Source: Arthrobacter cheniae (GTDB taxonomy: Bacteria; Actinomycetota; Actinomycetes; Actinomycetales; Micrococcaceae). Taken from it: 64,000 nucleotides of DNA. The notes under the pieces are model-generated. The model was not told the DNA's origin. It made no database searches and saw nothing but the letters and a program-made list of their open reading frames with translations. How positions within the stretch are numbered: position 1 is the first letter of the stretch; each line of letters opens with the position of its first letter. The position numbers were made by a program, and so were the translations under genes. This document shows positions 51,342 to 58,362 of this stretch, one piece after another. The DNA lies in contig NZ_QZVT01000001.1 of NCBI RefSeq assembly GCF_003602275.1, positions 92,567 through 156,566 on the forward strand, read 5' to 3'.

Positions 51342-52076
51342 ATGACACCCCGACCGAACCACACGGGTCCGCGCTCCGCACCGGTCGGGGAGCACCCTGT
51401 CGCCGTCATGCTCGTGCAGGGGATCCGGTCCGGAACCGGTTCTCCGCCGGAGGCAGAGATGCTCTGCCTCCTGGATGACGTCGAGCGCCGCCGCGCAGCG
51501 CGGATCGCCGATGCCGCCCAGGCGGTCTCGTTCGTGGCGGGACGCCAGGCGCTGCGCGTCCTGGCCGCAAGCCTCCTCGGGGTGCAGCCGGCGGATCTCG
51601 CCTCGGAGTCCGTCTGCCCCGTCTGCAGTCCCGGCGGCACTGCAGACCACGGCCGACCGGGCTACACCCTCGACGGCGGGACCATTCCCCTGGCGCTCAG
51701 CCTCTCCCGCGCGGACGGCTTCATCCTGCTGGGTGCGCTGGACGTCCGCGGGGCCGTTCCGGACGCCATCCCGCGGCTCGGCATCGACCTCACGGCAGTG
51801 GCGGAGGTCGGATTCGACGGCTTCGACGACGTCTCCCTGACGACCGCTGAACGGGACGCGGTACGGACGGTTCCCGTCGCGGGACGGGGTGCTGCTCGGG
51901 CGCGGCTCTGGGCCCGGAAGGAGGCCCTCGTCAAGGCGCTGGGCACGGGCTTCACCGATCGGGACCCGAGCGAGGTCGACGTGCTGACGGACGGCAGGAT
52001 CAGCGATCTGCCATCCGTCGACGGCGTCGTCCTCGCGTCGGAGGGTCTGGTGGCCGCCGTCGCGGTCATCCCCTGA
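51342..52076 (+). CDS. 4'-phosphopantetheinyl transferase
   Basis: This enzyme moves the phosphopantetheine arm of CoA onto the carrier Ser of PKS/NRPS and acyl carriers. The 244-residue Sfp-type protein has RLGIDLTAVAEV (metal Asp in GID) and the motif ARLWARKEALVKALGTGF, with the conserved W-xxKEA core. The length is typical. It lies next to the Pls-like synthetase, which carries a carrier domain needing this modification, so the two are a likely pair. Confidence 0.88.
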   Translation: MTPRPNHTGPRSAPVGEHPVAVMLVQGIRSGTGSPPEAEMLCLLDDVERRRAARIADAAQAVSFVAGRQALRVLAASLLGVQPADLASESVCPVCSPGGTADHGRPGYTLDGGTIPLALSLSRADGFILLGALDVRGAVPDAIPRLGIDLTAVAEVGFDGFDDVSLTTAERDAVRTVPVAGRGAARARLWARKEALVKALGTGFTDRDPSEVDVLTDGRISDLPSVDGVVLASEGLVAAVAVIP

Positions 52077-52137: not shown

Positions 52138-53505
52138 CTACAGTGCGGGCAGGTCCTCCGAGAAGAGCCAGTGCGTCAGCAGCACCTCGACGTCGGCCGT
52201 GGGCAGGGTGCGCTCCGCCAGCGCGATGAAGTCCGGCGTCGTTACCGCACCGAACCGGTTCTCCTTGGACCATGAGCGCAGCAACCCGAAGAAGGCGTCG
52301 TCGCCGGCCGCTCTCCTCAGTGCATGAAGGGCGAGGGCGCCGCGTTTGTAAACGCGGTCGTCGAACATGCCGGACGCTCCCGGGTCACCGATGACCAGGT
52401 CCTGTGGTTCACGGCTGAGCCGATGGTGCGTGGACCGCGCGTGGGAGTCCGCCGTCGTCGATCCGCCCGCCTCCGACCAGATCCATTCGGCGTAGCAGGC
52501 GAAGCCCTCATGAAGCCAGATGTCCTGCCAGCGAGCGGCCGTGACCGCATTACCGAACCACTGGTGCGCCAGTTCGTGGGCGATCAGGCGCTGCGCGTCC
52601 CAGCCATCGTCGAGGTGGTTCCGGCCGATGATGGACAAGGTCTGGGCCTCGAGTGGTATCTCCAACTCGTCGTCCGTGACCACCACCAGGTACTGGGGGA
52701 AGGGGTACGGCCCGAAACATTCCTCGAAGGCCGACATCATCTCGTGGTTCCGGGCCAGGGCGGCCTTCGCCGCCGGCACGAGGGACGCCGGGACGGCGGC
52801 GTACTGGGGCACGGGGCTCGCCGGATCTCGCGGGGTGGGGCGGGTTGGAAGGCCGACGGCGGGCTGCGCGGGATCGTTCAGGGCGACAAGGTCGTAACGG
52901 CCGATCTGGACCGTCGCCAGGTACGTGGCCATCGGCTCCGCCTGCGCGTACACCCAGGTGGTCCGGCTGGACTTCGCGATGCGCGAGACGAGGACGCCGT
53001 TGCAGATGGCGCGATACCCGGTGTCCGTGGTCACCGTGAAACGGTAGGAGCCCTTCTGCGCCGGGTGGTCGTTGCAGGGGAACCACGACGGCGCTCCCGT
53101 GGGTTGGCCCGCCACGATCACGCCGTCGGTCAGTTCCTCCCACCCGACGTCACCCCAGGGGCCACCGATCGGTGCTGGATTTCCCTCGTACCGGATGTCG
53201 AGCCTGAATTCGGCGTCGTCCGGCACGGGATCGCGGAAGGTGATCAGGAGCTTTCCCGCACGGTCCTTGTACGAGCGGACGCGGACGGTGTCCGACGTCA
53301 CCTTGGTGGTCCGCAGGCCGCTGAGGTCGAGTTCGAGCTGGTGCAGTTCGCGGTGCGCGGTCATCGTGAGGACGGCCCGGCCCGCCAGTCGGTTGCCGGC
53401 CGGCCTGTAGTCGAGCGTGAGGTCGTAGTGGCCTACGCGATAGGCGGTACTGCCGTTGGACGGCGTGTAGGGGTCCGGCGCGAGGTCCTCGGAGCTACTG
53501 CCCAC
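52138..53505 (-). CDS. M1-family zinc aminopeptidase
   Basis: The 455-residue protein is a short M1 metallopeptidase. The zinc site is HELAH at residues 310-314 with the third ligand Glu333 in WLHEGFACYAEW, giving HExxH-18-E. The usual GxMEN exopeptidase motif is degenerate (around IPLEAQT), as in the short actinobacterial M1 group. No clear signal peptide is present. It starts with GTG 11 bases inside the end of the Pls-like synthetase gene. Zinc aminopeptidases that degrade poly-lysine are known from poly-lysine producers, so a polymer-trimming role is inferred, not proven. Confidence 0.9.
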   Translation of the reverse strand: MGSSSEDLAPDPYTPSNGSTAYRVGHYDLTLDYRPAGNRLAGRAVLTMTAHRELHQLELDLSGLRTTKVTSDTVRVRSYKDRAGKLLITFRDPVPDDAEFRLDIRYEGNPAPIGGPWGDVGWEELTDGVIVAGQPTGAPSWFPCNDHPAQKGSYRFTVTTDTGYRAICNGVLVSRIAKSSRTTWVYAQAEPMATYLATVQIGRYDLVALNDPAQPAVGLPTRPTPRDPASPVPQYAAVPASLVPAAKAALARNHEMMSAFEECFGPYPFPQYLVVVTDDELEIPLEAQTLSIIGRNHLDDGWDAQRLIAHELAHQWFGNAVTAARWQDIWLHEGFACYAEWIWSEAGGSTTADSHARSTHHRLSREPQDLVIGDPGASGMFDDRVYKRGALALHALRRAAGDDAFFGLLRSWSKENRFGAVTTPDFIALAERTLPTADVEVLLTHWLFSEDLPAL

Positions 53506-56500
53506 GCACCGGCCCCGACCAGGAGCTGACCGGGTTACCCATCCAGTAGGTGCCGGCGGGAACCGTCTCGCCCCGCATCACGAGCGACGCCGGACCGACC
53601 GTCCCGCCGGAGGCGATCTCGGCGGCGGGGAGGATCACGCTGTGCGGGCCCAGGGTTGCCCCTGCGGCGAGCTCGACGGTGTCCATGCTCATGATCCTGT
53701 CATGGAAGAGATGGGTCTGCACCACGCAGCCGCGGTTCACGGTAGAGCCGGCGCCGAGCGTCACCAGGTCCGCCTCCGGCAGCCAGTAGCTCTCGCACCA
53801 GACCCCGTGCCCGATCTTCGATCCGAGGGCACGCAGCCACCAGACCAGCGCCGGTGTCCCGCTTGCGGCCCTCGCGAACCAGGGCGCACTCACGCTCTCG
53901 ATGAAGGTGTCCACCACCTCGTTCCGCCACACGAAGGAACTCCAGAGGGGGTGCTCGCCGGCGGAGATCCGCCCCACGAGCAGCCATTTCACGACGACGG
54001 CGCTGCCTGCCGCGACCGCGCCCAGCCCCATGAACACGACCCCGCTGAGCAGTGCCGCCACCGCGTATCCGCCCCACAGGGCCAGGGCATCGAAGATCAC
54101 CAGGGACGCCGCGGCGATCATCACCGTGAGGATGATGGGCAGCACGCGGCAGAGTTCCCAGAAGGCGCGCGCGGCCTTCAGGCCTCCGGAGGGCTGGAAC
54201 GTGCGGCCGCGGTCGCCGGTCACGGCCAGGCGGCGCAGGCGCGACGGCGGGCTTCCCAGCCACGAGCTTCCGGCCTTGGCCTTCGCGGGTGTCGCAGAGA
54301 GGACGGCGACGAGCGAGTTCTTCGGGACCCGGCGTCCGGCCGAGGTCATGCCCGAGTTGCCGAGGAACGCCCGCCTGCCGATCTTGGCCGGGGCTATCCG
54401 CAGGTAGCCGCCGCCGAGCTCGTAGGAGGCCACCCTGGTGTCGTCCGCGAGGAAGGCGCCCTCGCCGATCGTGGTCATCTTCGGGATGAGGAGGACGGTG
54501 GAGGCCTCGACGTTCCTGCCCACGCGGGCTCCGAGGAGCCGGAGCCACATCGGGGTGAGGAGGCTGGAGTAGAGGGGGAAGAGCAGGTCACGGGCCATGT
54601 CCAGCGTGCGTTCCGTTGCCCAGATCTGCCAGCCGATGCGGCTGCGCGCCGGGTAGTGGCCCTCGCTCAGCCCCACGCCCAGCAGCCGGACGGTGAGGAG
54701 GATCAGGGCCGCGTTGACGATGAGCCAGAGGATCGCGGCGAGTACCACCGGACCTGCCAGCGAGAACCACGCAACCGACAGTGACGGCGTTCCGCGCAGC
54801 GCTGCCACCACGGGCACGGCGGCGATGGTGGCGGCGATGAAGGGGATGAGGGCGAGGACGCCCGATGCCGCCGCGAACGCCAGGAAGGACAGGCGGGCGT
54901 GCAGCCGCGAGCGCGCCGGCGGGGCATCCGGCCACTCCTGCTTGGACCTGCCCGCCCGAGTCGCCGGGGAACCCGAGAAGAGCTGGCCGGCCTTCACGGC
55001 GCCCTGCACGGCGGACCCGGGCGCCACCTCGGCACCGGCCCCGATCCTCGCGCCCGGCATCAGGGTGCTGCGCGCCCCGATGACGGCTTCCGTCCCGATC
55101 GAGATCGCACCGATGTGCACATGGTCCCCGTCGATCCACCATCCCGACAGGTCAACCTCCGGTTCCACGGATGCTCCGGCTCCGAGAGTCAGGAAGCCCG
55201 TCACGGGCGGGACGGAATGGAGGTCGACGTCCGACCCGATCCGCGCACCGAGCGCCCTCGCGTACACCGGTACCCAGGGGGCGCTCGCGAGGCTGACGGC
55301 GCCGACGCTGTCCGAGATCTGTTCCGCGAGCCAGAGGCGGAGGTGCACCCTCCCCGAGCGCGGATAGATACCGGGCCCGACCCGGCGCAGCAGGATGCGG
55401 GCGGCCGCGACGGACAGCGCCATGCGCCCGAACGGACTCACGAAGACGAGCCAGGACAGGGCTACCCACCCCCAGGACAGCGTCGGGGCACCCGTCAGGA
55501 CGCCGAGTCCCGTCAGCACGTTGGCGGCGATCATCGCGTAGGTGAGCCAGCGCATGCCGGCGAGGAACTGCAGCGGGATGCCCATGACGGTCTGGAAGAC
55601 CTGGGACTTCCGCGCGGTGCGGCGAACGGTCCGCTCCGGCGCATCGGGCTGCTCCCCGCCGTCGCCCGTGCTCGCCGCGAATGCCGCGAGCGCGCCGAGC
55701 CGGGGATGCGCGTAGATGTCCGCGACGGTGATGACCGGGTAGCGGGCGCGGATCAGCGACACCAGGCGGGCTGCGGCGAGGGAGCCACCGCCGTGGAGGA
55801 AGAAGTCGGCGTCCTCGTCGGCCGGGACCGTCCCGAGGACGCCGGCCCACTGGTCCGCGATCCACTGCGCGCGGGGATCGAGGTCCTGTTGTCCACCAGG
55901 GTCCCCTCCCGCAAGCGGCCAGGGCAGCGCGTTCCGGTCCACCTTGCCGCTCGTCTTGGTCGGCAGCGCGTCGGTGATGGTCAGCAGCGGCACCAGCGCG
56001 GCGGGGAGCCGTGCCGCAAGGAGCTCCCGAAGGACCTGCAGGTCGGCAGCACCCGACGCCGGCACGAGATAGCCCACCAGCAGCTGGTTGCCCGACGGCG
56101 TCGTCCGGACAGCGGCCGCCGCACCGGCGATGCCGGGCAGGGACTGCAGCGCGGCGTCGACCTCGCCGAGTTCTATGCGGCGCCCGCCGAGCTTCACCTG
56201 GTCGTCCGCCCGGCCGACGAACACGAGGCCGGCCGCTTCGAGCCTCACGAGGTCCCCCGAGCGGTAGGCACGGTCCCAGCCGAGCGTCGGCATGGGCGCG
56301 TACTTCTCCGCATCCTTCTCGGCATCGAGGTAGCGGGCCAGGCCCACGCCCCCGATGATCAGCTCGCCGACCGCATCTTCCGGCACGGGCACGCCGTCCT
56401 GGTCGACGACGGCGAGGTCCCAGCCATCCAGAGGCAGGCCGATCCGCACTGGTCCGCTGCCACCGAGGCGGGCAGCGCAGGCGACGACAGTGGCCTCCGT

Positions 56501-57412
56501 GGGTCCGTACGTGTTCCAGACCTCGCGATCGTGCACGGCGAGGCGCTGGGCGAGATCGGGTGGGCACGCCTCCCCACCGAAGATGAGGAGCCGCACGTTC
56601 TCGAGGGAGTCCGCAGGCCAGAGAGCGGCCAGCGTAGGAACCGTGGACACGACCGTGATGCCGCGCGCGACCAGCCATGGCCCGAGGTCGACGCCGGTCC
56701 GCACGAGCGCCCGCGGCGCCGGCACGAGGCACGCGCCGTACCGCCAGGCCAGCCACATCTCCTCGCACGAGGCGTCGAAGGCCACGGACAGACCCGCGAG
56801 CACCCGGTCCGCGGGCCCGATGGGCTCGCGCTGCAGGAACAGGCGCGCCTCGGCGTCCACGAACGCCGCCGCGGAGCGGTGTGTGACGGCCACCCCCTTG
56901 GGTGTCCCCGTGGAGCCGGACGTGAAGATGATCCAGGCGTCGTCGTCGGGCGTGGGGTCTCCGGTAGCACCGCGCGCGGCACCTGCCGGAGTCAGCGACA
57001 GGCCCGGCCCCACGACGACGGCGGCGCGGGACTCCGCGAAGACGACGCGTGCACGCTCATCCGGGTCGTCCGCGTCGACCGGGACATAGGCGGCGCCCGC
57101 AGCGAGCACCCCGAGGATCGCGATGTAGAGCGCGTTGGTACCCGACGGGAGCCGCACGCCGACCGTGTCACCACGACCCACCCCGGCGTCGCGCAGGGTC
57201 GTCGCGAACCCCTGCGCCGCGGCGACCAGCTCCGCGTAGCTGAGCGCGGTGGTTCCGTCGTCGAGCGCCGAGGCGCTGGGGTGCTCACGGGCGGTGGAGT
57301 GCAGGATGTCGAGGAGGGTCCGTGGTGCCGGCGCGAGCCCGGACGCCGCGAACTGCGCGCGATGATGCGCAGAAAAGGGTGCGGGGGCGGTCTCGGGTGG
57401 AGGAATGGTCAC
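53495..57412 (-). CDS. Pls/PosA-type single-module NRPS (A-T-membrane-LbH), putative basic homo-polymer synthetase
   Basis: The 1305-residue protein resembles epsilon-poly-lysine synthetase (Pls/PosA family). The adenylation domain is at about 30-500 (IIFTSGSTGTPKG near 156, YGPTE near 300, KTSGKVDRNAL near 485), and the carrier domain has Ser544 in HGGGSLAAARL. The C-terminal half alternates hydrophobic helices with three left-handed beta-helix modules near 740-805, 965-1035 and 1215-1300. By-eye alignment to GrsA gives the pocket code D-A-E-S-I-G-T-V-V-K; its acidic position 239 is typical of Lys/Orn pockets. Neighbours are a PPTase and an overlapping M1 peptidase. Confidence 0.88.
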   Translation of the reverse strand: MTIPPPETAPAPFSAHHRAQFAASGLAPAPRTLLDILHSTAREHPSASALDDGTTALSYAELVAAAQGFATTLRDAGVGRGDTVGVRLPSGTNALYIAILGVLAAGAAYVPVDADDPDERARVVFAESRAAVVVGPGLSLTPAGAARGATGDPTPDDDAWIIFTSGSTGTPKGVAVTHRSAAAFVDAEARLFLQREPIGPADRVLAGLSVAFDASCEEMWLAWRYGACLVPAPRALVRTGVDLGPWLVARGITVVSTVPTLAALWPADSLENVRLLIFGGEACPPDLAQRLAVHDREVWNTYGPTEATVVACAARLGGSGPVRIGLPLDGWDLAVVDQDGVPVPEDAVGELIIGGVGLARYLDAEKDAEKYAPMPTLGWDRAYRSGDLVRLEAAGLVFVGRADDQVKLGGRRIELGEVDAALQSLPGIAGAAAAVRTTPSGNQLLVGYLVPASGAADLQVLRELLAARLPAALVPLLTITDALPTKTSGKVDRNALPWPLAGGDPGGQQDLDPRAQWIADQWAGVLGTVPADEDADFFLHGGGSLAAARLVSLIRARYPVITVADIYAHPRLGALAAFAASTGDGGEQPDAPERTVRRTARKSQVFQTVMGIPLQFLAGMRWLTYAMIAANVLTGLGVLTGAPTLSWGWVALSWLVFVSPFGRMALSVAAARILLRRVGPGIYPRSGRVHLRLWLAEQISDSVGAVSLASAPWVPVYARALGARIGSDVDLHSVPPVTGFLTLGAGASVEPEVDLSGWWIDGDHVHIGAISIGTEAVIGARSTLMPGARIGAGAEVAPGSAVQGAVKAGQLFSGSPATRAGRSKQEWPDAPPARSRLHARLSFLAFAAASGVLALIPFIAATIAAVPVVAALRGTPSLSVAWFSLAGPVVLAAILWLIVNAALILLTVRLLGVGLSEGHYPARSRIGWQIWATERTLDMARDLLFPLYSSLLTPMWLRLLGARVGRNVEASTVLLIPKMTTIGEGAFLADDTRVASYELGGGYLRIAPAKIGRRAFLGNSGMTSAGRRVPKNSLVAVLSATPAKAKAGSSWLGSPPSRLRRLAVTGDRGRTFQPSGGLKAARAFWELCRVLPIILTVMIAAASLVIFDALALWGGYAVAALLSGVVFMGLGAVAAGSAVVVKWLLVGRISAGEHPLWSSFVWRNEVVDTFIESVSAPWFARAASGTPALVWWLRALGSKIGHGVWCESYWLPEADLVTLGAGSTVNRGCVVQTHLFHDRIMSMDTVELAAGATLGPHSVILPAAEIASGGTVGPASLVMRGETVPAGTYWMGNPVSSWSGPVRGQ

Positions 57413-57522
57413 GGCTGTAGTCTTCCGGTGCAGGGTGAACGGCAGGTGACCGGATTTGTCGGCTGTCCACGGGTCCGCGCAGTCTACCGGGCACCGGCTG
57501 GGGTCAGGGGCTGCGCTCGCCC

Positions 57523-57528
57523 TAGAAT
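57523..57528 (+). promoter_or_regulatory. Putative leaderless -10 of thyA
   Basis: TAGAAT ends 6 bases before the thyA GTG. A start 7 bases after the -10 would place the GTG at the 5' end of the mRNA. No Shine-Dalgarno is visible. Confidence 0.45.
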
Positions 57529-57534
57529 GGCTCG

Positions 57535-58362
57535 GTGAGCACCCCCATCCCCACCCCCTACGAGGACCTGCTGCGCGATGTCATGGCGAACGGCGCGGCC
57601 AAGAGCGACAGGACGGGCACCGGCACACGGAGCGTCTTCGGCCGCCAACTCCGCTTCGACCTCACCGAGTCCTTCCCCCTCATCACCACCAAGCGCGTGC
57701 ACTTCAAATCCGTCGCACTCGAGCTGCTCTGGTTCCTCCGCGGCGACTCGAACGTCCGGTGGCTGCAGGAGCGCGGCGTCTCCATCTGGAACGAGTGGGC
57801 GGACGACGACGGCGAGCTCGGCCCGGTCTACGGTGTCCAGTGGCGGTCGTGGCCCACGCCCGACGGCGGCCACATCGACCAGATCGCGCAGGTCGTCGAA
57901 GCACTGAAGACCAACCCCGATTCCCGCAGGCACCTCGTCTCGGCCTGGAACGTGTCGGAGATCCACAACATGGCGCTGCCTCCCTGCCACGTGTTCTTCC
58001 AGTTCTACGTCACCCCCGGCATCGACGGCGCCCCGGGGAGGCTCTCCTGCCAGCTGTACCAGCGGTCGGCGGACACGTTCCTCGGCGTTCCCTTCAACAT
58101 CGCGTCCTACGCCCTGCTGACGCTGATGGTGGCGCAGCAGACCGGCCTGGAACCCGGCGAATTCATCTGGACCGGCGGCGACGTCCATGTGTACGACAAC
58201 CATGTGGAGCAGGTGACCGAGCAGTTGTCCCGTGCGCCGTACCCGTCTCCGCGTATCGAGCTGAAGCGGAAGCCCGCCAGCATCTTCGACTACACCCTGG
58301 AGGATTTCGACGTGGTCGACTACCAGCACCACCCCACCATCAAGGCACCGGTGGCGGTATGA
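57535..58362 (+). CDS. thyA: Thymidylate synthase (ThyA type)
   Basis: ThyA makes dTMP from dUMP with methylene-THF. The 275-residue protein has the GTG start [20 protein letters not shown]. The catalytic Cys is in [13 protein letters not shown], and nearby are [13 protein letters not shown] and the folate-site [20 protein letters not shown]. The stop overlaps the folA ATG by 4 bases; folA regenerates the folate oxidised by ThyA. Confidence 0.97.

Follow-up and report, generated by a model that had tools for sequence, protein, structure and literature searches.

The window, a 64,000-nucleotide stretch of Arthrobacter cheniae DNA, contains a compact cassette of three genes built around a long open reading frame at 53495–57412 on the minus strand. 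This frame, which we refer to as pls, starts with GTG, runs for 1305 codons' worth of residues (1305 aa) with no internal stops, and has exactly the limits given in the original prediction. The gene directly downstream, on the same strand (52138–53505), encodes an M1-family metallopeptidase, with its first 11 bp overlapping the end of pls. Convergent with this pair, on the plus strand at 51342–52076, is a gene for a 244-residue 4′-phosphopantetheinyl transferase (PPTase). Upstream of pls lie thyA, folA and asd, all divergent, with 122 bp between pls and thyA (57413–57534). A consensus scan around pls and within this 122-bp region revealed no sigma-70-like promoter, and a search around pls revealed no terminator.

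In terms of domain organization, the pls product is a member of the Pls/PosA type of synthetase, as had been proposed. Specifically, it comprises an adenylation (A) domain (residues 10–501; 55910–57385, computed from the residue numbers), a thiolation (T) domain (residues 516–578; 55679–55867) and a membrane polymerisation region (residues 605–1295; 53528–55600), all on the minus strand, the last of these built from three repeats of helices plus a beta-helix. Pfam matches consist of AMP-binding (39–360), PP-binding (516–578) and one hexapeptide-repeat (Hexapep) hit; the AMP-binding_C match falls below its cut-off, and the Pfam families listed for the protein include no condensation or thioesterase model, in agreement with the classical domains said to be missing. 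The C-terminal region matches family model TIGR02353 in full (model positions 1–695 of 695), scoring 681.4 bits (cut-off 423.1), which assigns the protein to that family and not to a different clade. These domain and family scores exclude a chance match. No other place in the genome exceeds the TIGR02353 cut-off. Ser544, the phosphopantetheine site of the T domain, is conserved in all 100 aligned rows.

With respect to the substrate, the A domain was aligned to 7WEW, the solved A domain of the Streptomyces albulus epsilon-poly-lysine synthetase. The resulting pocket code, DAESIGTVVK, is formed by residues 213, 214, 217, 256, 277, 279, 301, 309, 310 and 490, a motif that we take to correspond to the GrsA pocket numbering. 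All 10 residues are identical to those of 7WEW, and the code exactly reproduces the basic-type string that had been read by eye; no non-basic code emerged. Across the domain, 319 of 476 aligned residues (67%) are identical to 7WEW, which scores 661.9 bits compared with 184.7 for the PosA domain 8G95. A literature search for the code string itself returned nothing. The same code is found in 79 of 79 full-length loci, these being the best 80 of 592 relatives in named genomes minus one partial locus (L070), a set that leans to close kin because only the best 80 were taken; its closest members are three Arthrobacter genomes at 87% identity. Further afield, in an even sample of 296 genomes from across the phylum, 14 pass the TIGR02353 cut-off, our own included, and DAESIGTVVK is present in all 12 full-length synthetases from 12 of them, the remaining two being our own genome and one (G046) from which the short pieces L150 and L151 were read. 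The query has Ala at position 236 and Glu at the third code position. In the excerpts of PMC10522769 consulted here, in which 8G95–8G98 are named as PosA structures, lysine-activating domains are described as carrying Ala in place of the Met218 of PosA, and the third code residue, Glu, as the key contact. A pocket first described as suited to Lys or Orn can be narrowed to lysine by this Ala and by the 7WEW score, far above that of PosA. L-Lysine is the best-supported substrate because the pocket code is identical to that of 7WEW and of all 79 loci; an identical code does not prove the product, and it is from sequence that we infer a lysine polymer and its linkage.

The relationship to other family members was examined with a tree of 54 A domains, in which 7WEW is the sole characterised enzyme. 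The tree included 32 of the 80 loci, hand-chosen to spread genera, and 20 paralogue rows hand-picked among the matches listed in genus and family-wide (149 genomes) searches. Copies from the query's own genome (L001, L085 and L086) were dropped, as were the partial L070 and the short intergenic loci L087–L091, the latter two before both code and tree counts. A single supported set (97/99) unites the query, 7WEW and the 32 named loci. Adjoining it are 10 rows at 45–52% full-length identity, which do not make up one clade and have the code DAESIGTVIK in nine cases and DAESIGTVVK in one. Another 10 rows, at 28–33% identity, form a separate set (100/100) that resembles diaminobutyrate polymerases (poly-Dab-like), with DFECLSVVTK in nine and DGESVSVVNK in one. 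At one locus of this set, L105, a class-III aminotransferase gene is directly beside the synthetase, accompanied by genes for a PPTase and a homoserine dehydrogenase; another, L109, encodes a PPTase, a class-III aminotransferase and an amino-acid kinase that has ACT domains and is probably an aspartokinase. These surroundings resemble the dat and ask context of poly-Dab synthetases given in the legend to Fig. 1C of PMC8117764. A named plasmid of Skermanella mucosa (L147) likewise encodes a synthetase with the code DFECLSVVTK, in this case beside ectB. L104–L113 and L147 are probable poly-Dab makers, in Micrococcaceae and beyond. Based on tree, codes and neighbours, poly-Dab-like synthetases do occur in Micrococcaceae, and the query is not among them.

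Within the genus, 20 of 38 genomes surveyed encode a Pls-family synthetase (18 Lys-type and four poly-Dab-like, with two genomes having both), and one synthetase-bearing genome also holds a second lysine-coded type. In G021, two lysine-coded synthetases (C153 and C165) are 87% and 51% identical to the query, and a PPTase gene lies near each of them. The Lys-type synthetase of G002, G016 and G024 is frame-broken or split over several places or contigs, reflecting either loss or assembly error. Two other phylum genomes contain frames of 919 and 860 aa (L148 and L149) in which the full Pls C-terminal region, the carrier serine and the counterpart of His1234 are present, with no A domain in the same frame.

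Taken together, these observations make it highly probable that the gene encodes an epsilon-poly-L-lysine synthetase, with the neighbouring PPTase and the overlapping peptidase as its likely partners. Epsilon-poly-lysine is an antimicrobial polymer that serves as a food preservative. It is very improbable that the enzyme instead polymerises ornithine or diaminobutyrate, in the manner of PosA or the gamma-poly-Dab synthetases. The architecture and the Glu at position 239 are shared with those enzymes, and the Micrococcaceae hold the separate set defined by DFECLSVVTK (9 of 10 rows), in which both loci scanned have a class-III aminotransferase together with a PPTase and one adds the probable aspartokinase. 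Nonetheless, the query lies outside this set with full support, its A domain is 67% identical to 7WEW while the poly-Dab-like set stands at 35–40%, Ala occupies position 236, and no dat or aspartokinase gene is present among the neighbouring ORFs scanned. We would also be very surprised by a product consisting of poly-beta-lysine or an alpha-linked lysine polymer: no lysine 2,3-aminomutase was seen among the same ORFs, and the tested relative from C. variabile is described as making epsilon-poly-L-lysine (PMC8117764, excerpts), even though the pocket alone does not fix the linkage and epsilon-poly-L-beta-lysine is listed as a known product of this kind of enzyme (PMC10522769, excerpts).

The assignment as a poly-lysine synthetase concerns what the enzyme is able to do, and is compatible with a silent or decaying locus from which no polymer is made. 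We regard such a state as unlikely for the query, in which pls is one open frame with the pocket residues and Ser544 all conserved, and in which the peptidase and PPTase frames are also open. In favor of a silent or decaying locus are the patchy distribution of the Lys-type gene (18 of 38 genus genomes, broken or split in the three of those 18 mentioned above) and the native gene of C. variabile, which gave no product. Since C. variabile itself made no detectable polymer according to excerpts of PMC8117764, the pls gene described here may also be silent natively.

The peptidase neighbour has the HExxH-18-E arrangement expected of its family, with HELAH at residues 310–314 and Glu333. Among the best 80 of 592 relatives it is beside pls in 78, and the two exceptions (L064 and L070) stop at a contig end; it also accompanies all 12 full-length synthetases of the phylum sample. 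In S. albulus, pls and pldII share one operon with a 4-bp overlap (PMC4361855, excerpts), and PldII is described as an aminopeptidase whose translation is coupled to that of pls and which is crucial for self-protection (PMC9223678, excerpts). By analogy, the M1-family enzyme at 52138–53505, matched to PldII by position and family, is likely a self-protection enzyme.

The PPTase was recognized by PF01648 (38.5 bits, cut-off 25), and none of the NCBIfam models reaches its cut-off on this protein. The genome contains one further PF01648 gene, a 163-aa frame that is probably AcpS, and three PF00550 carrier domains, located in a 168-aa frame (probably AcpP), in the T domain of Pls and in an AMP-binding/acyltransferase protein. 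As this last protein also has a carrier domain, the PPTase may have a second client. By family model, all synthetase-bearing genomes in the genus (20 of 20) have a second PF01648 gene, versus 1 of 18 others (Fisher 6e-10, a value that is only a guide and overstates the linkage because genomes of one genus share ancestry and are not independent). An earlier tally by protein search had given 19 of 20 versus 0 of 18; the family model added two PPTase genes, one lying 1.7 kb from pls in G027 and the other in G012, a genome without a synthetase, where it is approximately 16 kb from a 3151-aa frame whose adenylation match is below cut-off. In 17 genomes the PPTase is within 5 kb of the synthetase (16 by protein search, plus G027 by family model), and in three of the 20 (G014, G016 and G023) it is on a different contig from pls. 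Absences in incomplete assemblies count for less, since G020 and G033 have no PF01648 match at all. All A-domain matches above the TIGR01733 cut-off in the genus belong to Pls-family synthetases, with the exception of one in G005, a genome in which a third PPTase lies next to that match.

Outside the genus, a profile made from these PPTases found a counterpart at 30 of the 80 loci from named genomes (the best 80 of 592), with a distribution, by families assigned from titles, of 21 of 27 Micrococcaceae, 9 of 10 Microbacteriaceae and 0 of 43 others. Twelve loci retain pls, peptidase and PPTase together where no other flank gene of the window was found, which is a better argument for linkage than the Fisher value. 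Across the 12 full-length phylum-sample loci, L160, whose genome belongs to the same order, was the only one with a profile match near pls. A literature search for PPTase with poly-lysine found no report of a partnership between such a transferase and a poly-lysine synthetase, and the sole mention of a PPTase in the excerpts of PMC4361855 is a remark on genome-wide enrichment. As a practical hint, the neighbouring PPTase could be co-expressed with pls.

Regarding the C-terminal half, the three beta-helix modules of the original prediction were recovered in an AlphaFold2 model of residues 600–1305 (41-row alignment, mean pLDDT 89.6), which has three stretches of beta-helix-type strands with helices between them. 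As modelled, this half would consist of three helix-anchored left-handed beta-helix modules (C1–C3) like those of hexapeptide acyltransferases, and the best Foldseek matches are indeed enzymes of that type, for example galactoside O-acetyltransferase and CysE. VIA gave a best Z of 7.8, a level at which, as the tool itself cautions, the match may reflect no more than a common arrangement; its rows mostly cover model residues 61–334 on the C1 side, so that C2 and C3 are barely tested by it. Hydropathy beyond residue 600 (19-residue mean of at least 1.6) marks blocks at 838–874, 876–916 and 1083–1147 and none for the first membrane pair, and the model places long helices at each of the three sites expected for the six paired membrane helices of the family.

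Conservation within this half draws attention to His1234 in module C3, a candidate catalytic residue. Of the histidines in the C-terminal half, it alone occurs in all 100 rows from the three sets, followed by His690 (90 rows), His1237 (89) and His732 (81). A further 17 sequences, including those from Skermanella and the two proteins with no A domain in the same frame, have it in 15 cases, and the other two (L150 and L151) do not cover the position, for a total of 115 of 115 family rows that do. It is not the sole candidate, because other polar residues are about as conserved: E1165 and E1213 are present in 100 of 100 rows, and W694, R909, D990 and N1019 show at most one exception in 117. The occurrence of one invariant His among three modules suggests one active site in a degenerate pseudo-trimer, for which His1234 would be a candidate base. 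Kito et al. 2013, cited in PMC4668381 and reportedly a mutational analysis of the tandem domains, may bear on this residue. According to excerpts of PMC4668381, Pls requires each of its three tandem domains, which fits a single-site reading. The three-fold fold is not new, since a three-fold beta-helix arrangement is already described for the PosA model in excerpts of PMC10522769, where one catalytic unit is also suggested. That paper was the only one returned by a literature search for an active-site histidine of the synthetase, and in its excerpts histidine figures as an assayed amino acid; no cryo-EM study of the synthetase was found by the same means.

We are nearly evenly divided, leaning slightly toward doubt, on a broader proposal in which the C-terminal half is a single-chain hexapeptide acyltransferase pseudo-trimer with one working site at His1234 (Q-x-H), and in which, across many Micrococcaceae and Microbacteriaceae, a PPTase of its own accompanies the synthetase. 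The literature examined offers no settled account of how Pls couples residues in the absence of a condensation domain; a single-site pseudo-trimer, if true, would explain these peptide bonds, and His1234 provides a one-residue test of where polymerisation occurs. In the main interpretation, the locus would work as follows. The PPTase would place phosphopantetheine on Ser544, and lysine would be activated as lysyl-AMP and loaded onto the T domain. The beta-helix pseudo-trimer would link successive lysines, epsilon-amine to carboxylate, most likely in a single active site built on His1234 (module C3), and the chain, probably some tens of residues long, would exit through the membrane. The overlapping M1-type peptidase may trim or destroy the polymer for self-protection, as PldII does in S. 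albulus.

Compared with known systems, the locus shares with pls and pldII of S. albulus the A-T-three tandem domain layout, the identical code and an overlapping peptidase gene downstream. It differs in A-domain sequence (67% identity), in the length of the overlap (11 bp rather than the 4 bp given in excerpts of PMC4361855) and in the adjacent PPTase gene, which is a feature of the Arthrobacter cheniae locus. The coryneform Pls proteins, including those of C. variabile and Arthrobacter, are the same kind of enzyme in an operon with a peptidase, and their pockets are reported as identical or highly similar to confirmed Pls (PMC8117764, excerpts); the legend to Fig. 1C of that paper lists no PPTase, in contrast to the locus described here. 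PosA, the delta-poly-L-ornithine synthetase, has the TIGR02353 architecture and the Glu at code position 3 but differs in its code (DMEHNGTVSK in excerpts of PMC10522769) and in a far lower A-domain score. The gamma-poly-Dab synthetases PldA and PddA share the architecture and are set among dat and ask (PMC8117764, Fig. 1C legend) instead of a peptidase and a PPTase.

Pls homologues have already been reported in Arthrobacter isolates, and the C. variabile enzyme, of the same architecture, made epsilon-poly-lysine when placed in S. coelicolor (PMC8117764, excerpts); the Arthrobacter proteins of that study are likened to the query by description and not sequence by sequence. Clusters containing pls are also described in Agrococcus and Microbacterium (excerpts of PMC12067966). 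Polymer production by such organisms is not a new idea (cf. PMC8117764), and as the enzyme type is known in Arthrobacter, the find is sound but mostly ordinary. The locus contributes one more intact member, arranged as a compact synthetase–peptidase–PPTase cassette, and its less ordinary contributions are the PPTase that tracks synthetases within the genus and the invariant His1234.

The genes upstream of pls appear to be unrelated to the cassette. With phmmer at 1e-15 and flanks of up to 10 kb (shorter in some loci), thyA, folA and asd were detected near pls only in L004–L006 among the best 80 of 592 relatives, and we consider them a local flank because they occur in only three of the 80. A role for asd as a lysine feeder was rejected, as pls and the peptidase stay together without thyA, folA and asd. 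A separate feature of this region is a 210-bp segment (57348–57556) that holds the first ~22 codons of pls, the pls–thyA intergenic region and the start of thyA, and that recurs with 98.6% identity 113 kb away (G000:C33:36786–36995). For none of the remaining 37 genus members did the same search list a near-identical second copy; here, the distant copy adjoins a diverged 3′ remnant of thyA.
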